From positions 1 to 12,600 of the forward strand of contig JALLPB010003160.1 of the NCBI GenBank assembly GCA_036939975.1: a stretch of DNA of 12,600 bases, in the 5' to 3' direction. The position numbers were made by a program, and so were the translations under genes. Positions 1 to 12,347 of this stretch are shown piece after piece. Position 1 is the first letter of the stretch; each line of letters starts with the position of its first letter. The notes beneath the pieces were generated by a model that did not search any database, had not been told where the DNA came from, and saw nothing but the letters and a program-made list of their open reading frames with translations. Origin of the DNA: Cyclostephanos tholiformis. Lineage: Eukaryota > Bacillariophyta > Thalassiosirophyceae > Thalassiosirales > Thalassiosiraceae.

Positions 1-38
1 CAACCCTATTGCTGTTCCTGTTGGTGGTGATGGTGTTG

Positions 39-72
39 ACCTGCCTACTCTCCCCACCTGCCTACTCTCCCC
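39..72. repeat. 17-bp perfect tandem duplication
   Basis: The 17-mer ACCTGCCTACTCTCCCC occurs twice head to tail (39-55 and 56-72). It lies in C/T-rich sequence upstream of the transposase relic. It looks like a simple replication-slippage duplication, and no function is evident. Confidence 0.8.
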
Positions 73-156
73 GTGCCTTCTCCTCTCCATTGTTCACCTC
101 GCCACTTTCCCCAATCGTCAACCAATGCCATCAATGACCAAACGTAAGGACTCGTC

Positions 157-759
157 TTGGCAAGGGAGCATGCTGCTCTTGCCTTGTCAAGTTCTTCCGC
201 CCATCGAAGGACATTGCCCAGGCCCTCGTCAACCCTGAACCAGGCAGGCAAATTGATGATCTCATTGCCATTAGACATGATGTCTGGCAAGGCAATCAAT
301 GCAAAGTTCACCGAGTTGGGAATGGAGGTAGGCGAATGGTTGGCAATTTCCGAGAAGCTCAGCGGTGAAGATTACTTCATGTGGGCACTGAAAGACCCGA
401 GTTATGTGATGAAGATTATGGTAATGAGAGGACAGCTACTTCCGAATGAGAGTTGTGTCGAGCTGAAGTGGGTGTTGATGGAGAATGCTGTTCAGTGCCT
501 ATGCCAGTACAGGTTTCTGTCCCCGTACGACTGGCACTACAAATTTTGTCATGCCATCGACGATCACAACAACTTCCGTCACGCAATCCTATCCATCGAG
601 CACACCATCACAACAATGCATTGGGAGATACGTGTGTTCTTGTTTCTACTTGCGGCAAGTGAGGTAAATGTGTACCTCGCGTATCGGTTCTTCTGCAAGC
701 CCGATCCTCTCCCGACTCTCCATGGGATGGCAGCTAATAAAGAACAAATGGCTTGCTAG
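157..759 (+). pseudogene. piggyBac-like (DDE_Tnp_1_7) transposase C-terminal relic
   Basis: This open frame of 200 codons begins at a TTG after an in-frame TAA (146-148); its first ATG is about 33 codons in. From about codon 60 it resembles the C-terminal half of the piggyBac-like DDE transposases common in diatom genomes. Visible features are a DYFMWALKDPSYVMKIM segment, an F-DWHYKF segment, an HAIDDHNNFRHA motif at residues 132-143, and a closing hydrophobic stretch RVFLFLLAASEVNVYLAYRFF. By comparison with the family, the Asp pair would contain the third catalytic Asp; this is inferred from memory. The regions carrying the first two catalytic Asp residues are missing, so the copy cannot be active. 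A second frame (138-365, starting after a TGA) is open over the poorly matching 5' part. After the TAG at 757-759 the +1 frame stays open to 838 (NKWLAREDLDESHVV...). Both suggest frameshifts in a decaying copy. It is unrelated in sequence to the retroelement further right. Confidence 0.7.
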
Positions 760-838
760 GGAGGATTTGGATGAGTCCCATGTGGTGAGTATGGTCCATC
801 AGCTCATGGTTGCTAGGGAGGATGAAGTGCTGCAATGA

Positions 839-1470
839 TGTTGAGATGGTAGTCAGTGAGGTGGCAGTGATGCAGTTCGTAGTCAATACAATCCGAGAGG
901 GTGGCAGTGAAGCTTTGGATGGATGATGTGTGAGAAAGTGATGACAGAGAGACAGCCATGCAATCTAGGAGCATCACCAGTGGTAGAGCTTGGGCATAGG
1001 AGGTGGTGGTCACGATGGTTGTTTATCATCTTCTCAAACATTTGGAAGTGTGGGTGGGGGACCTTGGGAGGTCGAGCCTTTTTGTTCCCATCATCGCGAA
1101 GATAAAACTTCCCCCACACTGGTGGTGATGGAGAGGGTGATATGACATTGCGGGTGCTGTGGCAGTGTCATGGTAGACATCTTTTTGGAGGAGCATTAGC
1201 AGACTATTTGTCCTTTATTCACCAACAACCATGGCGCATAGTGGTAATATTTCATCCGGTCGTATTGGGGCCATGGCCTCTCCTCTACAGGTCTTACTTT
1301 ACACTTTGTCATTAAATGTCGGTATGAGACGACTCGGTCGACTGGATCATCATGTGCTAGGGCGTTAATCGACAATGGACAGGGTACACAACACGTCAAA
1401 CCTACAATTCATTATTTGATGAGATATCGATAACGACATTGCCGATAAAATATAGATTTTAGAGGTTCTA
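839..1470. other. Intergenic region, no supported gene
   Basis: No reading frame here has recognisable motifs; all are short and interrupted. It contains an 11-bp direct repeat GGTGGCAGTGA (860-870 and 900-910) and a 10-bp inverted repeat around 1142-1171. The left part may be further decayed tail of the transposase relic. The right end must contain the KEA 3' UTR, read leftward from 1470, but I could not identify a clear polyadenylation signal. Confidence 0.5.
1142..1171. repeat. Short inverted repeat (possible stem-loop)
   Basis: ATGACATTGC (1142-1151) and GCAGTGTCAT (1162-1171) are complementary over 10 positions with one G-T wobble, separated by a 10-nt loop. It lies in otherwise featureless sequence next to the transposase relic. 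It could be chance or the remnant of an element end. Confidence 0.4.
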
Positions 1471-3255
1471 TCATAACGAGACATTGGCATCTTGCTCCTT
1501 ACCAAGTGTGATATTCTTCCGATACAGCGCAACGAATTCGCTGAATGAAATGTACCCCTCTTTCTTTACCGCACATGGATCATCAACCAACGAGTCGCAC
1601 CCCAACAAATCCTTTAATTGTTTGTCTCCAATGACCGAGTCCGACGTCCGAAGGAGCTCGTTCACCAGTTCGGAAAGCTTCACCTTACCGTCTTCATTCA
1701 TTGTTAGAGACGTGGAGAAAAGCCTGAATAATTTGCGAGTTTCTTCCTTGTCACTATCGGAATCGATTTCTTCTGCCAGGCCGGAGAGTTTCTGGTTTGC
1801 ATTTTCTTCGGACACCTTAGCTACAGGAGGATAGAGTGGCGTCGCCATATTTTTAAACGCGATGGCTGCATCAGACTCGTCGAGTACAGCACCAAAGCGT
1901 TTGCTTCGCTTGACTCCTAACAGATCCCCAATTCCGGAGGCGACACTGCCCGTTGCGACAATTACTTCGGTGGCGCCCGCCTGAATAAGTTTCTTCGTTT
2001 TCCCCATTTCATCACAGCGGACAAAGATGGGTGTATCCGGAAATGCCTCTCTCAAACATTCCGTAGCTTTCAAACACCTCTCCGGTTCGCTGTATGTAAT
2101 TGCTATTGCAGTTGGCTCTTGTACCCCAGCTGCTCGGATCAGCGCACCAGAGGTTCCGTCGCCATACACGACTCGTGCCCCGTCCGCCACCTGGATTGAT
2201 AAGACAAACATCGCACGTAAGAATACAAATGATTCATAAGCACGAGAATCATGGCGATTTACTCACACTTGCTGAAATCTGCTCCGTCTTGCGCGCAAAG
2301 GCCACATAAGGTACGCCAGCAATGTTGGCCTTGTCCAGAAGGGCGCAAAGCTGCTGACCGACCTCGTTGTAACCACAGACAACGACTGCCCGGCGGAGGG
2401 ATTCTCGGCTCATAGCCGAGCGACGCTTTGCCATCCACAGTTGGGCAAATTCTTCATACTGCAGGGAGCCGTCGTTGTTATCATCGAACCGACGAATGAT
2501 ACTCGATACTTGGTCCAGCGAGAGAAATTTTCCCTCAACATCTCTCTCCCCGATGAGGGTGAATATGTTCTGTAGTTCCTCCGCCGTTATCACGCCATTT
2601 CCATCCTTATCGAAGCGCGAGAATGCCTCCTGTATCCTTGCCTCGTCGATATCTCCTACGTCGTAGGCAATGCTTTTGCCGTTCTCCACCCCGAACCACT
2701 GTTCCTTTGTCTCCACTGCCTCCTGCACGTCCAACTTTTTACCGACGTAATCGGCCGCCTCGCCCAGGAGAGGCGTCAGCGCCATGGATAAAATGACGGA
2801 GGCGGTAAGGAGCTTCCCCAAGGAATCTGGTATGATTCCATTCTGCGCCGCAAGATTGAATATGACGAAGGCGAATTCACCCCCCCCTGCAAGGAGGAGG
2901 CCAACGCGGGCGGCGTCAGCCTTTGATAGGCCAAGGGCACCGCCTCCACTGTAGATGACGCCGAATTTTATAAGCAGAAAGGATGATATCCCAACGAGCA
3001 GCGTCGGCCAGCAATCTATTACGGTCTGCGGATCGAGTGCAGAGCCCTTGGGGCGGCGTCCATCGATATTGAATTGATCCAAAAAGTCGCGATTAGACAG
3101 CGGCAATGAGTGGTGAAGGTCCGGAGATAAATTGATCATATGTGAATCCTGTTTACTCACTGCAGTGATGAAGAAAACTCCTAGCAAGATGCCCTCAAAC
3201 GGCTGGATGTCCGCCTAGAGAGAGAGAGAGGAGGGGGGGGAGGGAGAGAGAGGGA

Positions 3256-3308
<53 letters not shown>

Positions 3309-4994
3309 AGGGGGGTTGGACAAAACATTGTTAGAGAGAAAAGAATTGACAAGAATCATAACAAACAAAAAACGAACCTCAATCTGGGCCCTATATCCCG
3401 ATTCTGCCAAAAGCACTCCGGCCGCGAACGCCCCCGTAGTTGAACTCAGGCCCAAGAAGTCCGACACGACGCCCATCCCCACCGCGACCAGTAGGCTGGC
3501 GGCAACGAACGATTGACTCGACCTGCTGCTGGCGACGATCTGGAAGACGCGCCTCAATGCCACGCTCGCCAATGCCAGTACCGCGCCGAATACGACCGTG
3601 GCCTTGAAGGCGAGTATGCCGAGCACGATCGGATCAGCTCCACCGCCACCGGCGGCCGAGGAGGTTACGCCACCCTCGACGTTGGCTATCAGTGGCAATA
3701 TCACGAGCAGGGGGGCAACGGCCAAATCCTGCAATAGCAATATCGACAACGCGGCTATCCCATCCGGTCGATCCTCCCATCCCTTCTCCTTCAATATGGG
3801 CAATACGAAGGCACTTGACGACAGTGCGCCTGCGGCAGCGATCGCGAATGCCACCACCGGCTGTTCGAGTAGCTGCACCAATAACGGGTCGATGGGCACG
3901 TTCGGGTTCGATACCACCTGGAATAATAAGGGACCGCCCAAGAATAGTCCGAAGAAGATAACGCCCACGCTAAGCAACAGCTGGGTAGCCCCGAGACTGA
4001 AGAAAGATCCCAGCTCGCGAAGTCTATCGGGACTCAAGTTCAACCCCTCCACGAACAATAGGAAGAGTATGCCGAAGTCGCCCAGCTCGAAACCCACCTC
4101 CTCATTGCCCCGGAGCAGGCCAAGACCGTGCGGACCCGAAACTAGCCCGAATGCCAAATACAGCAACACCGGACTTATGTTCAACGCCGAACTCAACGGA
4201 GCGGCGACGACGCATATCATCAAGAAGATGATCAGATCGTGTCCCACGTTATTCAGGCTCGCCTTCTCCATCTCGGGAGTGATCAGTATTGAATTGTCGT
4301 TGTTGAATTTCGCCCCCTCCTCGACGATCTCCTTCGTTATTTCGCTCTCGACCTCGCCTATCACCGCCCCGACTTCCCGTCGCACCTCGACGAGGTCGCG
4401 TCGTATCTCGCCGACCTCATCGGCGAAATCGCGTCGTATCTCGCCGAGGGATAAGTGACTGGGATGGGGGAGAGAGGAGGCCAAAGTGGACGAGGCGTCC
4501 GAGAGGATAGTTGATGATGATGACGACGACGACGACGACGAGAGGTGATGGTAATAGTTGTCGTGGATTGCTGCCACATTCGCACTGGTCGTCGAATGAT
4601 GGAGGAAGTCGCCCACGGAGCTAAGGAACGACGGGACGTCGTGCGGGATCGAGTCGAGCATTTCGTGCGACAGCGGGAGCGCGCTGAGGTGCTGGTGCTG
4701 CTGCCGCCGCTGAATTTTCTGCCGCTGTCGTCGCAACCGCCGCATATGTTGATGTGCCGTTGTCATCCCCCCCCCGTCGCCGTTCGTACTACACGAAAAA
4801 TGACGATCGTGGTGGTGGAGGTGGTGGTGGGATGATTGAAGGAGGGGAGGCATCATCGTCATTGCCGCCTTCGCGCCACATGGGGGAGGTCGGGCGAAGG
4901 CCGCCACTCCTACTCCTACTCGTACTCCTCCAATAGTGCCACCGTTGAACTCCATCGTGAATAAAAGTAGTAGCGTCTTCATTCCTCGTCCCAT
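1471..4994 (-). CDS. KEA3: Plastid K+/H+ antiporter, KEA family, with EF-hands and TrkA-N domain
   Basis: Spliced gene with exons 4994-3378, 3214-3161, 3046-2267 and 2190-1471, predicting 1056 aa. KEA antiporters exchange K+ for H+ across chloroplast membranes; KEA3 tunes the thylakoid proton gradient. The start is the first ATG after an in-frame stop (5037-5039); a second ATG at 4982 has better context. Residues 1-33 look like a signal peptide ending AA|FARP, an ASAFAP-like diatom plastid signal. His-rich and Ser-rich segments follow (56-65, 152-161), then four 11-residue repeats (184-227). The CPA2 membrane domain (about 251-656) contains the QD pair 422-423 and GEFAFV 613-618. Two canonical EF-hand loops follow (703-714, 745-756), then TrkA-N with GYNEVG at 782-787. 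A second, degenerate EF-hand pair lies at 980-991 and 1024-1035. I recall an EF-hand-bearing KEA3 being described in Phaeodactylum. The family call is secure; the KEA3 paralogue assignment is less so. Confidence 0.88.
2191..2266 (-). other. KEA intron 3 (76 nt, phase 0)
   Basis: On the - strand the donor is AGT|GTGAGT (exon ends at 2267) and the acceptor is ATCCAG|GTGGCG (exon resumes at 2190). Splicing joins ...EQISAS to VADGARVVYGD..., restoring a continuous TrkA-N nucleotide-binding fold. Without splicing the upstream frame stops about five codons into the intron. Confidence 0.85.
3047..3160 (-). other. KEA intron 2 (114 nt, phase 0, frame-preserving)
   Basis: The donor is GCA|GTGAGT (exon ends at 3161) and the acceptor is CCCAAG|GGCTCT (exon resumes at 3046). 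Splicing gives FFITAGSALDPQTV, matching the conserved FF-T-GS segment of this antiporter family. The intron is exactly 38 codons long with no in-frame stop. Retention would therefore insert 38 residues into the membrane domain rather than truncate the protein. Confidence 0.75.
3215..3377 (-). other. KEA intron 1 (163 nt, phase 0) containing a microsatellite
   Basis: The donor is GAG|GTTCGT (exon ends at 3378) and the acceptor is CTCTAG|GCGGAC (exon resumes at 3214). Splicing gives RAQIE joined to ADIQPFEGILLGVFF, the expected continuous CPA2 sequence. More than half of the intron on its acceptor side is simple CT/CA repeat, which acts as a greatly expanded polypyrimidine tract. Confidence 0.85.
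3217..3305. repeat. (GA)n/(TG)n microsatellite inside KEA intron 1
   Basis: The run is compound. It begins with imperfect GA/G-rich sequence (3217-3255), continues with a TG run (about 3256-3268), and ends with 18 uninterrupted AG units (3269-3304). On the gene's own strand it reads as pure pyrimidine-rich CT/CA sequence directly before the splice acceptor. Confidence 0.95.
4396..4447 (-). repeat. Two exact 19-bp repeats, 33-bp period, in KEA exon 1
   Basis: TCGCGTCGTATCTCGCCGA occurs at 4396-4414 and 4429-4447, a period of 33 bp or 11 codons. The repeats encode the first two units of a four-unit 11-residue pattern (GEIRRDFADEV, GEIRRDLVEVR, then more diverged units). The pattern suggests an extended amphipathic helix or hendecad coiled coil between the targeting peptide and the membrane domain. 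Confidence 0.75.
4515..4543 (-). repeat. Trinucleotide (GAT/GAC)n tract encoding a Ser run
   Basis: A GATGATGATGACGACGAC-type repeat on the + strand encodes the run of ten Ser (residues 152-161) of the antiporter on the - strand. It is a likely length-variable site within the low-complexity N-terminal region. Confidence 0.7.
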
Positions 4995-5377
4995 ATGCCG
5001 AAGCTCCTCACTCACTCTCAACGGCGGAAAAGATGATTAAAATGGTGTCCTGGATAGGCATCGACAGATCAGTCTATCCCTCTCTTCCGCTCTAGCTCTA
5101 TGTGTCGACGGATAATCCTTTCACGTGTTATTGTTATATTTTTTAGTGAGAGAGAAGGCCGAAGACGTCTCGGCATGCAGTCAAATGCATTTGGAGGCCA
5201 CAGAGTGGGGAGGGCTGTGTTCCATGTTCCTCCGCCCTGCGCCTGCTGCGTGCCAGATCATCGGAGGAGACGTCAAGAGGATTAGTGTCACAGCTAAAAA
5301 AAATGGGGATAGGGGAATTGTGTAACTTGTTACTACGTGTAACATATCAATTGACCAAACACTTTGCTAACACTTCC
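4995..5377 (-). promoter_or_regulatory. KEA upstream region with candidate promoter motifs
   Basis: No gene is supported here. Reading toward KEA on the - strand, there is a TGACGTC-type CRE-like site (GACGTC 5269-5274, with TGACGTC completed at 5275). Next come a palindrome CAAATGCATTTG (5182-5193), a second GACGTC (5164-5169), an A/T-rich TATA-like stretch (about 5132-5145) and a CACGTG G-box (5122-5127). CRE-like TGACGT motifs are known in CO2/light-responsive diatom promoters. The motifs are short and the assignment is inference. Confidence 0.35.
5322..5344. repeat. GTAAC/GTTAC inverted repeat cluster
   Basis: GTAAC-TT-GTTAC (5322-5333) is a perfect small inverted repeat. It overlaps a second pair, TGTTAC (5328-5333) with GTAACA (5339-5344). 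It lies in the gap between KEA upstream sequence and the retroelement leader and could mark the left end of the element, but there is no matching copy on the right. Confidence 0.4.
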
Positions 5378-5465
5378 CGTAGAAAATACGTAGAACAAAG
5401 TACTAACCAGACATCTAAGGGGTTTAGACAAAACGTAGGAGCTCCTACAGGTAGTTTAGACAAAA
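5378..5465. repeat. 14-bp palindrome between 12-bp direct repeats, with CGTAGAA repeats
   Basis: GTAGGAGCTCCTAC (5435-5448) is a perfect palindrome. GTTTAGACAAAA flanks it at 5422-5433 and 5454-5465. CGTAGAA occurs at 5378-5384 and 5389-5395, with a variant CGTAGGA at 5434-5440. This density of short repeats is unlike the surrounding sequence. It could be a recombinase binding site, a promoter element, or the element's left end. Confidence 0.6.
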
Positions 5466-5671
5466 TTATTTATCTATTCCCGAAATATGTGAAATATTAA
5501 GCGACAATTTAGCTAGATAGCCTCGCGGTAAATTTCCCTCCAAGATTTGCCATTCGCTTACCCGTTTTTTCTTTTACACCCTTCGAAAGGTAAATGCATC
5601 GTTTGATTGTCGTGTCGACTCTGAGACGAGTCCTCCCCCAATCAGGTTTCTCTCAGGTAATCGTTTGGTTG

Positions 5672-5689
5672 TCTCCGCTTCGCCGGAGA
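5672..5689. repeat. Small hairpin in the retroelement leader
   Basis: TCTCCG (5672-5677) pairs with CGGAGA (5684-5689) around a six-base loop CTTCGC. It lies just upstream of the GCAATCAGC repeat array. It might be an RNA structural signal of the leader, but a stem of this size can arise by chance. Confidence 0.35.
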
Positions 5690-5712
5690 GGCACCCGGGG
5701 GGATTTAAAGTG

Positions 5713-5864
5713 GCAATCAGCACTCCCCTGTCGAAAGAACAGCATCATCCCCTCCGGCAATCAGCCACATTTGTTTCGCAATCAGCCAAACATCAAATCC
5801 GCAATCAGCGAACGGTCATCTACTGACAAGGCAATCAGCCAAAAAAAGTTGAACAGCAATCAGC
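5713..5864 (+). repeat. Six spaced copies of GCAATCAGC in the leader
   Basis: The exact 9-mer starts at 5713, 5757, 5778, 5801, 5831 and 5856, giving start-to-start spacings of 44, 21, 23, 30 and 25 bp. Related partial copies are CAATCAG at 5639-5645 and GCAATTAG near 5895. The flanks between copies are unrelated, so this is an iterated site rather than a tandem repeat. It ends about 130 bp before the gag ATG. Possible roles are an internal promoter or enhancer bound by a host factor, or an RNA signal such as a packaging site. Confidence 0.9.
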
Positions 5865-5991
5865 TGACTACTACTTCTGTGTCACTTTTTTCTTGCAATT
5901 AGTTTCGAGCTCTCCCTGACGCTTCATCTCGCCTATCATTCGCCCATTACGGCTACTCATTAATTTTGCTCAATTCTTATTATTCGAACAG

Positions 5992-8358
5992 ATGCTGCTC
6001 TACTCTACTTCGAAACCCCCCTCGGAAATCAGTCCCGACTGGACCTTCTGGTCGACGAGTGAACTTGGGCAGGGCATCTCCCCAGACCAAATCTCTTCCC
6101 TCCTTTTCATCACCAGGAAAAAGGAGATCTGTTTGATATACAAGCCCACCCCTGTCTACAATGACAAAAATGAGCTTATCTCCATCATCGGCAACATGTT
6201 CGACGAGAACACCTCGCCTGCCTTTTTCAAAATCGACAAAGATGAAATCGGCTCCTGCTACGCCATTCGCGAGTTCGAGCAAATCCCTACGGGGTTCCGT
6301 CCCAAAATCGCCCTCCAATCTGATTCCGTGAAAGATACAGACTGGGATGAAGCAGAAGTCGAGATAGCACTCATTGCGATTCCCACTCTTGCCCCGCTCC
6401 CCTACGGCTTTCAGATCAAGAGCATCATCGTCGATGACGATTTCATTGACAAGATGAAAGCAATTTCCAAAGCACATGGTTTTTGGGCAAAAACAATGAG
6501 TGATGCCATCGATCAATTCGAGGTCGACAACCATACCGAGTTAGTCCTCAAAAGGATGATAAAATCTCCCCCGGCGTCCACCTCTCGTGACCCAGCTCGT
6601 GCTGCAACCAAGAATTTGAGAGGCATGACTTTCACCTCCTCCCCCTTTGTTGATGTCTCCCTCCTCAGCAAGAACACTTTCGCCTCCTATCAAGAAGAGT
6701 TACGTACTTTCTTCCGCCGAAACCCCACACCAGCACGTGTTGAGAACATTGATGATAGTAGCGTTGCCAAAAAACAACAAGTTCCAATCATCAACACTTC
6801 CGCAACTACAGCCGTCGGACAACCACCGCAGGAGTTCTATGCCCAGCTTATTGAAACGATGAAAAATCTTCACGCACCATTGCACCCATCCAAAATCGTC
6901 GTTGAATCGAGGGACTACGAGGACACAATCGACCTGGCCAAGCTACAAAACGGAATGCTACAGCTTATGTATGCCACGGGTGATATCGCCTGGGATGACG
7001 GAGTTGTAAAGAACGTCCATCCTGCCACCTTCTCCCAAGGTTTTCTGAACCTCCTCACTCGGACTGCATCAGTTCAAGCTACTCAGCTCACCAACCTGTT
7101 CACTACCATCTTCTCGACTGAACCCGAAGATGACGATGACGAGCAACATGCCAACCCTCTCAACAGGCTCATGTCACTTGTCGTGTTCCCCCCCAAATTT
7201 ACAAAAGGACATTTGAATGCCAGTTTTCAAAGCTCAGACCTCGAAACTGGTTCAATGTACAAATCTACGTCAATAAATCCTTTTCACTACGCACCTCAAG
7301 GAAACAGGAAGCTCATATTAGATGCCGCTACCAGAATGGATGAAGAGCGCAACGAAATCAATTGGCGGATCATTGAGAAAGACCGTAGCAAAATTTCTTC
7401 CGTCATCGAGGGCGTTGGTCGTGTCAACACAATGGAAGAGGTGGCCATGACCTGCGCCAACATCTGTGGTGTCCAACTTGCGATGGTCGATATGTCCGGA
7501 GGAAAACCCCTCCTCTACCAATTCGCCTGGAAGATGATTCGTTTCATTGAGAATAAAAAAACAAAAAATTGGCTGCGCGATAATTCTGGAAGCATCGCGC
7601 ACTTACCCATGGTTTTCATGGCAAAACTTCATCAGTTTTTTATGCATCTCGCCTCTTTCTCTCAGAACACTTTCTCTCAGAACTCCATCAACACGAACAA
7701 GATCGAAGTTGGCGATAGCATGTTTGAAACAAAAGCCTTGACCATCGCAGTCAAGCTCGGTTCAAAGTTCTTTAGCAAGATGCAGGAGCACGTCGACGAC
7801 AATTCCATCCCCAAGGACGTACCAGCCTTTGCAAAAAGTTTTTTTGTTGAAGCACCAGGGGGCGGGTTCAATCCCGCACCCACCAACGAAGCAACCAACA
7901 AACCAACCGCCGCCCAACAACCAGCTGATAGCAACGGCGGTAACAAGCGTAAGGCAAAAACCGAAGAGGAACAAGGCCAAAAAAGGAAGAAAGAGTTTTC
8001 TGATAAGAGCCTCAAAATGGGTCTTTTCCATATCAAAAAAGGCATTCCAGCATCAAAGGCTCTACCCGACAAGAGTACCCTCACGGACGGAGTCAGCATC
8101 TGTCTTGATTCCTGTTGTCACGAGAAGAAGTGTAATTTCAACCATCTGCTCTGCAAGAATGGCAAACACTACACCAACTGGAAGAACGTACCAGACGAGG
8201 ACAAAACCACCTTGCTGAATCACATGAACACCACCGGCCTCATGTGGTTAGATGCGGAGACCTTTGAAAGGCACAAGATCACGATCGCCCCCGAGTTCAC
8301 TCACCTCCTAGGCGATGCAACTGGTCCCAAGCAGAAGTCGGCCGAGAAGAGTACGTAG
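5992..8358 (+). CDS. Gag-like ORF1 of the YR retrotransposon
   Basis: 788 aa starting at the first ATG after an in-frame TGA (5917-5919). I recognise no family for the N-terminal 640 residues; the assignment as Gag rests on position before RT and on the C-terminal region. That region has a basic bipartite nuclear localisation-like segment (KRKAK about 652-656, KRKK about 664-667) and a Cys/His cluster with C704, C708, C709, H710, C714, H718, C721 and H726, plausibly a zinc-binding nucleic-acid contact. An acidic run EPEDDDDEQ lies near residue 380, and a Pro/Ala/Asn-rich linker precedes the NLS. The ORF is uninterrupted and long for a Gag. It ends at TAG 8356-8358, inside a predicted intron whose donor starts at 8351. 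If spliced, residues 1-786 continue in frame into pol. Confidence 0.75.
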   Translation: MLLYSTSKPPSEISPDWTFWSTSELGQGISPDQISSLLFITRKKEICLIYKPTPVYNDKNELISIIGNMFDENTSPAFFKIDKDEIGSCYAIREFEQIPTGFRPKIALQSDSVKDTDWDEAEVEIALIAIPTLAPLPYGFQIKSIIVDDDFIDKMKAISKAHGFWAKTMSDAIDQFEVDNHTELVLKRMIKSPPASTSRDPARAATKNLRGMTFTSSPFVDVSLLSKNTFASYQEELRTFFRRNPTPARVENIDDSSVAKKQQVPIINTSATTAVGQPPQEFYAQLIETMKNLHAPLHPSKIVVESRDYEDTIDLAKLQNGMLQLMYATGDIAWDDGVVKNVHPATFSQGFLNLLTRTASVQATQLTNLFTTIFSTEPEDDDDEQHANPLNRLMSLVVFPPKFTKGHLNASFQSSDLETGSMYKSTSINPFHYAPQGNRKLILDAATRMDEERNEINWRIIEKDRSKISSVIEGVGRVNTMEEVAMTCANICGVQLAMVDMSGGKPLLYQFAWKMIRFIENKKTKNWLRDNSGSIAHLPMVFMAKLHQFFMHLASFSQNTFSQNSINTNKIEVGDSMFETKALTIAVKLGSKFFSKMQEHVDDNSIPKDVPAFAKSFFVEAPGGGFNPAPTNEATNKPTAAQQPADSNGGNKRKAKTEEEQGQKRKKEFSDKSLKMGLFHIKKGIPASKALPDKSTLTDGVSICLDSCCHEKKCNFNHLLCKNGKHYTNWKNVPDEDKTTLLNHMNTTGLMWLDAETFERHKITIAPEFTHLLGDATGPKQKSAEKST

Positions 8359-8513
8359 ACCCTACCTTGGTTGCGACCATCATTCCCTTTCATATTAGCA
8401 GCACAGGAGGACAGCAAAACACTTTCGAACTTCATTACATGCACCTTCCACTCCTTACCTCCCTTTTTTTCATACCCTCGCCTGATGACTATCGTCTTGC
8501 TACACCCTATCAG
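8351..8513 (+). other. Predicted intron joining gag to pol in frame (163 nt)
   Basis: The donor is AAGA|GTACGT (intron begins at 8351) and the acceptor is CACCCTATCAG|GAAAGG (ends at 8513). A branch-point-like CTGAT lies at 8482-8486, about 28 nt upstream, and a pyrimidine-rich stretch lies between. The intron contains the gag stop (8356-8358) and the last upstream stop of the pol frame (TGA 8486-8488). Removing it joins A|GA to make AGA (Arg), then reads straight into the pol frame from 8516 with no stop before 10106. Two independent frame requirements are met by one strong splice pair. Inference only; no transcript seen. Confidence 0.55.
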
Positions 8514-8833
8514 GAAAGGCAGACTCAATTGCTGAACCCTGGATTAATCTGCATAGTAGAATTAAACCCACTAGTAAGCCAAGTAAAGTCAAAAAAGCGA
8601 ATTCCCCAAGTAAAATAAGGATTGAACAGTCACTGGACGACGATAATAAAAGCATTGACTCGACTGCTCAAAAAATCTCGTCAGGCGTAGATAAGAATGC
8701 CATCCTATCTGAGTATCAAACCTCGTGCTTAAATAAGGGTTTCAATTCAGAAGCTTCTACCATTGCAAAAGGTGAGACTTCATCACCACCACCTTCCTAC
8801 CCTTCATATTATCAACTTATTTCACAGTGCAAG

Positions 8834-10108
8834 ATGAAACCAAGTCAAAATCTACAATACCGAGTCAAGGATTTGAGGTTCGATAACATAGTTATTTTCC
8901 TCATCAAGAACCAAGCATCGTACCTTTCACACAACGACGTGAATAACATTCAAAGAATTAGCAAGATGCATCGTGACATGGTTAACGACGTCCTGCGACT
9001 GAGAGGAATTGATTTTTCAAAGGTGAAACTCCCGAGATATGATTATGCAGAGCAGACAGAAATATCACAAGAAAGAGTCAACCTGGCGACGGCATGTGCC
9101 ATTTATTACGGGCTTAACACCGGCATGGTCGTCCGCTACCTGATGGGCGAGTACGTTGGTGAATCCCGGGATTCAACTAAAATTCTTAAAGAGGTGTCGC
9201 CGTACATCGACAAGGTAGACTGCGAGCATATTAAGCGGATCATCGACCAGGGCTGCCCGTCTCATCTTGATTTCGAAGAAGAGTACAAAAATAAGCACAT
9301 GGTTCTTCGAAAGGGAAATCAGCAAACTTTTTTACAATTCCCTGAAGTCACCGCTAAAGCTATGAATAAGGAAGAAAAAAACAGTCACGTTTTAGCTCTT
9401 CGGGAGTGGGTAGTTCATTTTTCACCTTACTGCCGAGCAACACCTCAAGGTATTCGGGAGAAATATGGCAAGCATCGAGTCATATTTGACTCTTCCACAC
9501 AAACCTGTCCTCACGAGGTCGTCCTTAACCACGAAACTTCCACGGACCAAGAGGCGATCATCGATTTTGGGAAAGCTAAAACCAACCTTCTTGTCAACAT
9601 CTACAATTGGCGAATAAGTTACCCTACCAAGGTTACATTTGTATCGCTAGCAGACATCACAGCCTGTTTCCGATTCCCACGACTATCGGCTGATGTCACC
9701 GGAGCCTTCGGATTTGTTGCCGAGTCATTATATTTCATATCGACAAGCCACGTTTTTGGTTCAAACACGTCGGCCAGTTCTTGGGAACCTCTCCGTCGTG
9801 CAATTCAGAATATGATAACAGTTTACGCCCAGCAAGATGATCTGGTTGACAAGCATAAAAACTTACTGGAAGAATTGAATTGGTCCGGTGACTTAAACTC
9901 CTCAAGACCCAATCTGGTGAAAGCATTTCCTTGTGACATCAATAAGGGAGTCGTGGACGACAAGGGAGTTCTCTTCCCGATGACGGCCAATATCTACGTT
10001 GATGACATCTTAGCCGCCGCAACCCGTCAAGAGAACATGTTGAGACTACTTGCAGCTATCATCGAAGCTATTTTTATAGTGTGCGGAATACCAAATACTG
10101 CGGTTTGA
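8834..10108 (+). CDS. Reverse transcriptase portion of pol (ends at in-frame TGA)
   Basis: 424 aa from the first ATG, but the same frame is open from 8489, so the true protein probably begins upstream, perhaps as a Gag-Pol fusion with 106 linker residues (8516-8833). RT motifs seen are K-HRVIFDSS (214-221), motif A LADITACF with catalytic D274, motif B-like FGSNTSASSW (308-317) and motif C YVDD (388-391), with both catalytic Asp. These match RTs of DIRS/LTR-type elements, which copy the element RNA to cDNA. The stretch between motifs B and C is about 70 residues, longer than I expect for the family. The frame stops at TGA 10106-10108, just after the palm domain, and continues in the same frame to 11236. 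That makes the ORF a truncation by one nonsense codon (perhaps CGA to TGA) rather than a natural end. Confidence 0.85.
   Translation: MKPSQNLQYRVKDLRFDNIVIFLIKNQASYLSHNDVNNIQRISKMHRDMVNDVLRLRGIDFSKVKLPRYDYAEQTEISQERVNLATACAIYYGLNTGMVVRYLMGEYVGESRDSTKILKEVSPYIDKVDCEHIKRIIDQGCPSHLDFEEEYKNKHMVLRKGNQQTFLQFPEVTAKAMNKEEKNSHVLALREWVVHFSPYCRATPQGIREKYGKHRVIFDSSTQTCPHEVVLNHETSTDQEAIIDFGKAKTNLLVNIYNWRISYPTKVTFVSLADITACFRFPRLSADVTGAFGFVAESLYFISTSHVFGSNTSASSWEPLRRAIQNMITVYAQQDDLVDKHKNLLEELNWSGDLNSSRPNLVKAFPCDINKGVVDDKGVLFPMTANIYVDDILAAATRQENMLRLLAAIIEAIFIVCGIPNTAV
10106..10108 (+). other. Single in-frame TGA in pol
   Basis: Context GTT TGA CAG. The frames on both sides are the same and both are conserved in character, so no frameshift is involved. 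CGA to TGA at a CpG is the simplest origin. Programmed readthrough is the alternative, since TGA followed by C is the leakiest stop context. Confidence 0.85.
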
Positions 10109-11236
10109 CAGTGTCCCCTCTCCCTTGAGAAGTGGCACGAATTAATTATCGGGCCTAGGCAAATTGTATTGGGCCTAGTCATTGACACAAATACCATGAC
10201 AGTAGGAATCTCTGACGACTATATCAACAAAGTTCGTGACCTCCTGAACAATTGGGATCCTAGAAAGAGATTTTTTAAGGTTAACGAGATGCAAAAGCTC
10301 GTGGGGAAACTCGCAAGACTAGGAGAAGGTGCCCCGTGGATATTTAAACTCATGTCACACCTGTATACTTCCCTGGCCTTTGCCCTAAAAAGCAATACTG
10401 AACTTTTGGAAAATAGCTCAAGCGGATTCAGGGACCTGGTGAAGCAAATCGCTACAAAAAACTTCACAGGAAAAACCTCAGACCACCAACGGCATATCAA
10501 TTTTGCAATGAAAAAGGCTGCAAAGATGGTGAATAGAAATCATGCCACGTACCTTGTGAATAGCACGATGCGAGACGAGCTGAATTTTATTTCAAATGCA
10601 TTAAAACCAGATTCGGGTATCAAATTTGTGACACCGATCGCTCACCTCATCCCTAGAATGCCAACAGCATCTATCGTTGGTGATAGCTCGCTCCTCGCTT
10701 GCGGCGGATACTCAGTCACTCTAAAATTTTGGTGGCATTTTACTTTCCCTTCGAGCGTGGTTGAGAGAACACTCCTGCACCTCAAGAATAAATCGGACGA
10801 AAAGTTCATCTCAATAAACTGCCTCGAGTACTTCACTGTAATAGTGAATTACTGCGCCTCACTGCTTGTATTTTCATCCAAAAAAATCAACGATGACCCG
10901 CATCCCGTTGTCTTATGTGTTACTGACAACACAAGTGCTCTAAATTGGACTTTGCACACAAGCAAGAAATCAAGAATCGGCCGAGCCCTTGCAAGACTCT
11001 TTTGTGGTTTCCTGATTGGCTCGAATGTTGGTGTTAATGCCAAATGGATCAGTACGGTCGAAAACGAGATCGCCGACAAGATCTCAAGGCTGAAGAAACT
11101 CACCCCAAATGAAGCTGAATCTTCCCCCTCTCACATCACCTACGATTACGCCAACCTTCAACAGGAACACAAGGAGTTGAAAGTTTGCAATTTCTTTCAA
11201 CCGAGTCACAAGCTAGTTTGTCATGTCCAAGCTTAG
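10109..11236 (+). CDS. RT thumb and RNase H portion of pol (downstream of TGA)
   Basis: 375 codons in the same frame as the RT, with no ATG near its beginning, so it is the continuation of pol rather than a separate gene. The first part (QCPLSLEKWHELIIGPRQIVLG, then LVIDTNTMTV) is typical of the RT thumb/connection. The second half is an RNase H fold of the DIRS type. The four catalytic carboxylates can be placed, counting from 10169 as residue 1: D172 in IVGDSS, E220 in INCLEY, D253 in CVTDNTSALNW and D303 in NEIADKIS. RNase H would remove the RNA template during cDNA synthesis. The domain appears intact, which argues that the upstream TGA is recent or is suppressed. The stop TAG (11234-11236) overlaps the start of the recombinase ORF. 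Confidence 0.8.
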   Translation, partial: QCPLSLEKWHELIIGPRQIVLGLVIDTNTMTVGISDDYINKVRDLLNNWDPRKRFFKVNEMQKLVGKLARLGEGAPWIFKLMSHLYTSLAFALKSNTELLENSSSGFRDLVKQIATKNFTGKTSDHQRHINFAMKKAAKMVNRNHATYLVNSTMRDELNFISNALKPDSGIKFVTPIAHLIPRMPTASIVGDSSLLACGGYSVTLKFWWHFTFPSSVVERTLLHLKNKSDEKFISINCLEYFTVIVNYCASLLVFSSKKINDDPHPVVLCVTDNTSALNWTLHTSKKSRIGRALARLFCGFLIGSNVGVNAKWISTVENEIADKISRLKKLTPNEAESSPSHITYDYANLQQEHKELKVCNFFQPSHKLVCHVQA

Positions 11237-12347
11237 ATCAAATTCTGAAATTGAAACCACAAGATTTAGGCAAGCTGTATACCTAACCTTCATCAAAAGG
11301 CACCATATTCAAGACCCATGCGGAAGCGAACCAGGATACCAAAGAGTTGTTGCATGTTTCATGGAACAGCTCATGCTCGATCACAACTCTCGATCCGCCA
11401 CAGTCCGTGGGTACGTCGAGGCTATCAATATTTTGTTCAAGCTTCGGAATTTTGAACCCCTCGTTGACTTATCCAACCGCACAAACATGTGCACACGAAT
11501 CATCATTGCTAGAGAGAAAGAAGAATGTATTGCACGCCAACGCAGCCCAATCACCCGGGAAATATTCAGCGCCTTGATCGATCTAGCTAATAATTCACCC
11601 GCCGACTCCGCCGAAGCTGTTGTCGCGGACTGGTTTATTCTCATTCGAATAACAGGCCTCCGATGCGCTGAATACGCGCAGAAAAGTCAGACATCTGTGG
11701 AGGAACACGAATACCCTTCGGGCAAACGTGTAATCAAAGCGTTCGTCTCTCCTGACTGGAGATTCTACAACTGCAAAGGTAGACTCGCCACGAGCACCAT
11801 CGAGGTCCCAGAAAAGTTGAAGATGACCTTCCGAATCCAGAAAAACAGGCGTAATGGTCAATCCATCACTCTGGTTGCTGATCACAACCATAAGGAAATA
11901 TGCCCAGTCCGAGCTGCTCATCACATATCTTTGCGAGCAAAAAGGCTCGGCCAATCAGAATCAGAGCCTCTGGGCATCTTTGTTAACAAATTCGGCATAA
12001 AGAAATATCTCACCGGGAATAAAATTGCTGAGGTGCTACGCTCTGTTGCCAAAAAGGTCCATCCAGACTGGACTGCAGATGAACTAAGCCGCATCTCCTC
12101 TCACTCGGGTCGAGTTTGGGCCCTCGTTTTATTGGACGAAGCTGGCATGAGTCCAGCTTTCATGACATCCAGACTACGCTGGATGGGAGAATCTTACAAG
12201 TTATACCTCCGCGATACTTCCATCCTTCAAACCAAACACGTTGACGCCCTTAAAACGGAATCTGACGAAGTCATCAAACTACTTGGCAGTAATAAAGATA
12301 TACTACCTAACATCGTCCCGATCGACGATGACATGGGAGAATATTAA
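11223..12347 (+). CDS. Tyrosine recombinase (integrase) of the YR retrotransposon
   Basis: 374 aa. This enzyme would integrate the circular cDNA by strand exchange through a 3'-phosphotyrosine intermediate, which is why such elements lack target-site duplications. The catalytic set is visible: R147 in the box I segment RITGLRCAEYAQ, a basic K207 region (QKNRRNG) before the beta-hairpin, H294 and R297 in SHSGR, W320 in the His/Trp position, and nucleophile Y328 in YKLYLRD. The spacing R297 to W320 (23) and W320 to Y328 (8) is close to Cre (23 and 9). The N-terminal 110 residues would be the core-binding domain (helical, with RSATVRGYVEAINI). The start ATG overlaps the pol stop by 14 nt in the +1 frame. 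An in-frame TAG at 11214-11216 rules out an extended start, so translation would need reinitiation, frameshifting or a separate mRNA. Confidence 0.88.
   Translation: MSKLRSNSEIETTRFRQAVYLTFIKRHHIQDPCGSEPGYQRVVACFMEQLMLDHNSRSATVRGYVEAINILFKLRNFEPLVDLSNRTNMCTRIIIAREKEECIARQRSPITREIFSALIDLANNSPADSAEAVVADWFILIRITGLRCAEYAQKSQTSVEEHEYPSGKRVIKAFVSPDWRFYNCKGRLATSTIEVPEKLKMTFRIQKNRRNGQSITLVADHNHKEICPVRAAHHISLRAKRLGQSESEPLGIFVNKFGIKKYLTGNKIAEVLRSVAKKVHPDWTADELSRISSHSGRVWALVLLDEAGMSPAFMTSRLRWMGESYKLYLRDTSILQTKHVDALKTESDEVIKLLGSNKDILPNIVPIDDDMGEY

Follow-up and report, generated by a model that had tools for sequence, protein, structure and literature searches.

A spliceosomal intron very probably lies across the gag stop codon of a tyrosine-recombinase-type retrotransposon in the diatom Cyclostephanos tholiformis, where its removal would join Gag and Pol in one protein. 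The element is located in the window, the whole stretch of 12,600 nucleotides of DNA that was analysed. Comparison with related copies and proteins establishes the predicted splice sites, their phase, their conservation and the existence of natural fused products, and the putative intron is beyond what chance would give, as judged from the conservation of the donor, the phases and the fused proteins.

In the proposed mechanism, unspliced RNA would be read as Gag, with translation ending at a stop that overlaps the 5' splice site, and spliced RNA would lose this stop and enter pol in frame, resulting in a single Gag-Pol protein. One transcript pool would supply both forms, and the unspliced form would double as the genome that is reverse transcribed. 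The RNA that is copied back to DNA is presumably unspliced in most cases, because the genomic copies keep the intron. Since the stop overlaps the 5' splice site, each RNA would have to be either a Gag message, and perhaps genome, or a Gag-Pol message. By analogy with LTR elements, the spliced fraction may set the ratio of Gag to Gag-Pol and thereby the excess of Gag.

In the window, exon 1 ends with ..AAG A/GT ACG TAG and exon 2 is entered at ..CTATCAG/GA, where the slash marks the splice boundary. The first intron base lies five bases before the gag stop (TAG 8356-8358), and the T of this stop is the sixth base of the intron (Table 1). The predicted spliced product reads ..KQKSAEK-R(AGA)-KADSIAEPWINLH.., in frame through a new AGA codon formed at the phase-1 junction A/GA. 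The pol frame is open from 8489, directly after a TGA at 8486-8488, and its first ATG, at 8834, is located 115 codons in. The T content of the intron is 30%, compared with 15% in 8150-8350 and 24% in 8514-8833. Between the acceptor and the conserved TGG of the W-I-N motif there are 26 nt in the window as well as in C358 and C253. The branch-like CTGAT of the window starts 32 nt upstream of the intron end, and eight of ten tested copies have a YTRAY word within 60 nt of the intron 3' end, its distance differing from copy to copy; the sole such word of C1452 forms part of the acceptor itself. The initial annotation of this DNA had placed GTACGT at 8351-8356, CTATCAG up to 8513, an intron of 163 nt, CTGAT, the TGA at 8486-8488 and the ATG at 8834, and all these coordinates hold. 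Its claims that splicing would fuse Gag to Pol in frame and that 115 open pol codons precede the first ATG were both confirmed by direct reading of the window.

Table 1. Features of the element in the window.
Feature	Position	Strand	Remarks
gag	5992..8358	+	exon 1 to 8350 if spliced; TAG 8356-8358 if unspliced
Predicted intron, phase 1	8351..8513	+	GT..AG, 163 nt; missing from fused P0041, P0036 and P0151
Predicted 5' splice site GTACGT	8351..8356	+	one-base overlap with gag stop codon
Branch-like CTGAT, candidate only	8482..8486	+	branch A about 28 nt before intron end
Predicted 3' splice site CTATCAG	8507..8513	+	the more pyrimidine-rich of two YAGs
pol exon 2, first part: N-terminal PWINLH region and reverse transcriptase (YVDD motif)	8514..10105	+	
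pol, second part, RNase H-like motifs	10109..11236	+	beyond in-frame TGA 10106-10108
Tyrosine-recombinase-like ORF	11223..12347	+	HxxR, RW and Tyr invariant in 4 aligned copies

Natural fusion proteins and conservation of the donor

Natural Gag-Pol fusions have been identified among the pol-side proteins, a set of 178 obtained in two protein searches, the second with the fused protein P0041 as query. The gag tail of the window and the start of exon 2 were applied separately as probes, and both match three of the 178 proteins: P0041 and P0036 from the first search and P0151 from the second. The whole intervening stretch is missing from all three. P0041 reads ..GPKKKATKK-R-KADAIAKSWINLH and its relative P0177 ends ..GPKKKATKKST; in a longer view, the junction of P0041 is ..HLLGNVTGPKKKATKK-R-KADAIAKSWINLHGRIKP and the end of this near relative is ..HLLGDTTGPKKKATKKST. 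The Arg at the junction is the residue predicted from A/GA. Among the 44 gag-side proteins none is fused, proteins longer than 1421 aa being outside the candidates. None of the three fused proteins extends to the end of pol as known from longer relatives, and the ORFs of P0151 and P0036 are short, on contigs of more than 3 kb. The fused proteins may therefore be derived from decayed, intron-free DNA copies of spliced RNA; alternatively, they may be cDNA. An origin in a lineage in which the intron never existed is also possible, though the four nearest Gag tails to each of P0041, P0036 and P0151 end with S-T or S-M.

Related copies were obtained through reverse transcriptase (RT) and gag searches within the same genome. 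Of the 30 RT matches, 16 contributed a junction to the table of copies. The 14 left out are L011, where gag is absent upstream, the second pieces of tabulated elements (L013, L021, L023 and L030), and short or decayed pieces (L022, L024, L025, L027, L028 and L031-L034), of which only C1401 was examined, through L050. C314 has no gag upstream. The donor is present at the matching place in nine of the ten readable related copies, C1401 being the one without it.

All nine copies with at least 50% RT identity and a readable gag end have a donor of the form A/GTRYGTR or, in one, GTGCAT. The donor is GTACGT in the window, C358, C1452 and C253, GTATGT in C1293, GTGCGT in C1430 and C1565, GTGTGT in C196, and GTGCAT in C1515. 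In each of them gag ends with AGT-xxx-stop, so that the penultimate residue is Ser from AGT throughout, and the last codon encodes Thr, Met, Ala or Val, with G as third base in eight of the nine. A residue that varies while its third base is nearly fixed is the reverse of what protein constraint produces, and fits a splice donor. In C1401, gag is 32% identical and ends AAT-GCA-TAA, without a GT at the donor place, and exon 2 and much of RT are missing from pol.

The same ending has been observed in database proteins. The 44 relatives of the gag C-terminal part and P0177 form a set of 45 Gags, nine of which fall short of the C-terminus. All 36 Gags that reach it end with Ser-Thr (31), Ser-Ala (3), Ser-Met (1) or Ser-Leu (1); this count consists of 35 pattern-matched Gags and P0177, the C-terminus of which was counted by eye. 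In the 35 tabulated Gags, Ser at -2 is invariant and residues -3 to -7 are variable. A donor is thus implied, at the level of sequence, by 36 of 36 C-termini.

According to the initial annotation, copies in which a donor or acceptor is lost while pol stays intact would speak against the intron. The four other copies with a near full-length, stop-free RT match (C358, C1452, C1565 and C507) all keep the donor and an in-phase acceptor. The donor is lost in C1401, where much of pol is deleted, in C1533, which has a partial stop-free RT match with an interrupted frame, and in C139, where RT contains stops.

The intron could also be real but always removed, in which case Gag alone would be a by-product and no control of the ratio would exist. 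The ordinary look of the splice sites and the three intron-free fused proteins agree with this, but it is improbable: an element that is copied from RNA would lose such an intron, yet nine of ten readable copies keep the donor, and all 36 Gags reaching the C-terminus end at a stop that overlaps it. Counter-evidence to the intron as such consists of the absence of a donor in C1401, of an in-phase acceptor in C196 and of a donor in two of seven distant copies, of the out-of-phase richest YAG in C1565, of the stop that splicing would create in C46 and the single clean solution in the distant group, of the rarity of fusions, and of the broken pol of the window.

Entry into pol and the varying reading frames

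In the stretch from the acceptor to the first pol ATG, the changes between the window and C358 at codon positions 1, 2 and 3 number 40, 38 and 76 (105 aligned codons), and those between the window and C1452 number 37, 35 and 59 (97 codons). Synonymous changes are near saturation, and therefore codon-position counts alone are quoted. The stretch before the ATG at 8834 evolves as coding sequence, indicating that the reading of pol begins further upstream, as it must if pol is entered from gag; the upstream entry proposed in the initial annotation is supported by this pattern over about 105 codons. A W-I-x-[L/F]-H motif follows the acceptor in the window, C358, C1452, C1293 and C253.

The three aligned sequences also allow the intron to be compared with its flanks. 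DNA identity between the window and C253 is 70% in the gag tail, 55% with 43 gap columns in the intron, and 79% in the first 87 nt of exon 2. Between the window and C358, the respective values are 72%, 48% with 68 gap columns, and 55% with 11 gap columns, and identity over 8514-8833 is 51%. The expectation that the splice sites are kept while the intron diverges faster than its flanks is borne out against C253; exon 2 of C358 diverges fast too, so that the contrast between intron and exon lies in the gaps and the codon pattern.

Slightly less probable than an intron that is always removed is the separate production of Pol, with translation starting internally or restarting at the 8834 ATG or at another in-frame start. 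The RT domain follows closely on the ATG of the window, the annotated starts of many database pol proteins lie there too, the callers being mechanical, and other copies have earlier in-frame ATGs (in C358 after 46 codons). However, the roughly 105 codons before the window ATG evolve as coding, the W-I-x-[L/F]-H motif follows the acceptor, and fused proteins exist. Separate initiation of Pol could take place alongside splicing.

Among the close copies, all three possible values of the gag-to-pol offset have been observed, and therefore a single signal for frameshifting or readthrough could not work across the family. The predicted intron restores the frame in eight of the nine close donor-bearing copies, namely the window and seven of the eight others. 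The copy that fails is C196, which is decayed and has the donor but no in-phase acceptor or YAG at the homologous place. The intron lengths are 163 (window), 215 (C358), 235 (C1452), 190 (C253), 316 (C1293), 122 (C1430), 177 (C1565) and 136 nt (C1515), corresponding to 1, 2, 1, 1, 1, 2, 0 and 1 modulo 3 in the same order, with the frame restored in each.

The acceptor was also chosen without regard to frame: within the 90 nt that precede the conserved motif of exon 2, the YAG richest in pyrimidines was taken. Of the ten loci scored, eight gave a phase-1 acceptor, where about one third would do so by chance and the copies are not independent. In C1565, the YAG richest in pyrimidines is out of phase and an in-phase TTGCAG is present. 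In C1515, the richest YAG differs from the acceptor used for the 136-nt length, and both are in phase. In these two single copies joining at the level of translation could occur: gag and pol of C1565 are in one frame with a single TAA between them, and the pol frame of C1515 overlaps the gag end. As a general mechanism, programmed frameshifting or stop readthrough with an incidental splice-like motif is very improbable and was rejected on account of the varying offsets, even though it is considered the usual strategy of retroelements (PMC3735527, in the part available) and suits the frames of C1565 and C1515, while the frames of the window are 130 nt apart without overlap and the three fused proteins lack the whole intervening stretch. 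The statement in the initial annotation that splicing acts in place of frameshifting or readthrough is thus favoured, since the gag and pol offsets vary while splicing restores the frame.

Seven copies form a distant group: C957, C507, C139, C1418, C1533, C883 and C46 (L015-L018, L020, L026 and L029). A GTAA-type donor near the gag end has been observed in five of them, and C139 and C1533 are without it. A clean phase-1 solution is given by C507 alone (donor GTAAGA, acceptor CTGTCTAG, 103 nt), the RT match of which is stop-free with 36% identity. In C46, splicing would create a stop at the junction. A TTAG acceptor was considered for the group and discarded, being out of phase with the GTAAG donor; C507 uses the in-phase CTGTCTAG. 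These copies hint that the Gag-Pol intron device may be older than the close family. In five of the seven (L015, L016, L020, L026 and L029), a DNA motif similar to TTAGCAATAAAYTACAT stands out by its strong conservation where pol starts, perhaps beyond coding needs.

For the splicing model as a whole, it is reasonably probable that one ancestral intron at the gag stop replaced frameshifting in a lineage of tyrosine-recombinase (YR) retrotransposons of diatom-like algae. The gag and pol frames would then have drifted with phase 1 fixed, and splicing would act as the switch between Gag and Gag-Pol and between genome and mRNA.

Known systems and composition of the element

Introns have reportedly been noted in some DIRS-order elements. 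In foamy viruses, Pol is made from a spliced RNA and without Gag; splicing opens pol both there and in the present element, but Gag and Pol are joined only in the latter. Ogre is a plant LTR element with a DDE integrase, and Steinbauerova et al. reportedly found in 2008 that its intron joins gag-pro to pol in frame. Like Ogre, the present element, though of another class, has an intron that separates two ORFs; it differs in its tyrosine-recombinase-like protein, its divergent RT and a donor that overlaps the gag stop. The available part of PMC3735527 describes splicing between ORFs in Ogre, as a plant Ty3/gypsy LTR retrotransposon, and that of PMC12786077 describes functional introns that yield subgenomic RNAs by alternative splicing. 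In copia, BARE1 and EVADE, splicing sets the output of Gag versus Pol (parts of PMC12786077 and PMC3735527). The direction is opposite to that of the present element, as in those sources the spliced RNA leads to Gag only and the full-length RNA to Gag-Pol.

The ORF order Gag, RT/RNase H and tyrosine recombinase is reported for Cafeteria Ngaro elements in the accessible part of PMC8547959. This order is common to the present element and the Ngaro/DIRS order, but the present RT is unseen by Pfam, and the split direct repeats of Ngaro (A1-ORFs-B1A2B2) were looked for in the flanks of two copies without success. In a term search of the available text of two DIRS surveys (PMC3266345 and PMC3783388), the word 'intron' is absent. 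In the literature as far as it was openly accessible, no intron between gag and pol was found described for tyrosine-recombinase or diatom elements. If the present reading is true, splice-controlled Gag-Pol synthesis extends from LTR elements to another class of retrotransposons, elements of this kind are broken up by simple gene callers, and the seemingly 'separate' pol ORFs of other protist retroelements may hide introns.

The element looks like a tyrosine-recombinase retrotransposon composed of Gag, RT/RNase H and recombinase. The start of gag is the first ATG of an 812-codon open frame (5920-8358), giving a protein of 788 aa, and 23 of the 44 relatives of the gag C-terminal part are 782-810 aa long. 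The RT has a palm and fingers fold of the retroviral/Ty3 type. The order Gag, RT/RNase H, YR is present with HxxR and Tyr, the YR and RNase H parts being assigned by motifs alone; the motifs in the second part of pol are those that we take to be of RNase H. The pol of the window is broken by the in-frame TGA at 10106-10108, and its 3' end, at about 11213-11236, leaves the frame kept by relatives such as P0004 and P0008 and is missing some residues that they have. Therefore, the window copy no longer makes an intact product. The recombinase ORF (ATG at 11223) overlaps the pol tail in another frame, at 11217-11236.

The first pol-side protein search yielded 119 database relatives of pol. Pfam gave no credible match for the gag, RT, RNase H and YR pieces of the window or for six relatives, and matches to Toxin_trans and Kelch, below the cut-off, were treated as chance. 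In a profile sequence search of the PDB, pol had no match at E up to 1, and three matches for the recombinase (E 0.13-0.52) were taken as chance. A structure model of the YR was poor (pLDDT 43) and was set aside. Viral contigs scanned with the RT contained no relative. The RT, RNase H-like and recombinase proteins (8834-12347) look like an unmodelled retroelement lineage. An integrase was not matched by Pfam in the window, though Pfam misses the RT too, and a tyrosine-recombinase-like ORF follows pol; in the pol pieces, Pfam matched no methyltransferase, a domain that, like inverted terminal repeats, marks DIRS1-like elements.

Within the window, where the contig ends at 12600, no repeat of at least 25 nt joins the two ends. 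No direct repeat, split or otherwise, links the 5' flank to the 3' flank in the sequence retrieved around C1452 and C1565, where the element ends were not located; inverted repeats were limited to one weak 30-nt inverted match, in C1452. The element is not filed as Ngaro, because split direct repeats were not found in these two copies. A perfect, near-tandem direct repeat of 72 bp is present in the 5' flank of C1452 (L065, C1452:10400-13400). Upstream of gag in the window, CAATCAG occurs seven times in the 225 bases of 5639-5863 and once elsewhere on the same strand, and this cluster is possibly a leader repeat. The neighbouring host gene is located on the minus strand at 1471-5036, and a piece of it (2249-3214) has sodium/hydrogen exchanger and EF-hand domains according to Pfam; it contains one GT..AG-like interval, and introns seem to be present.
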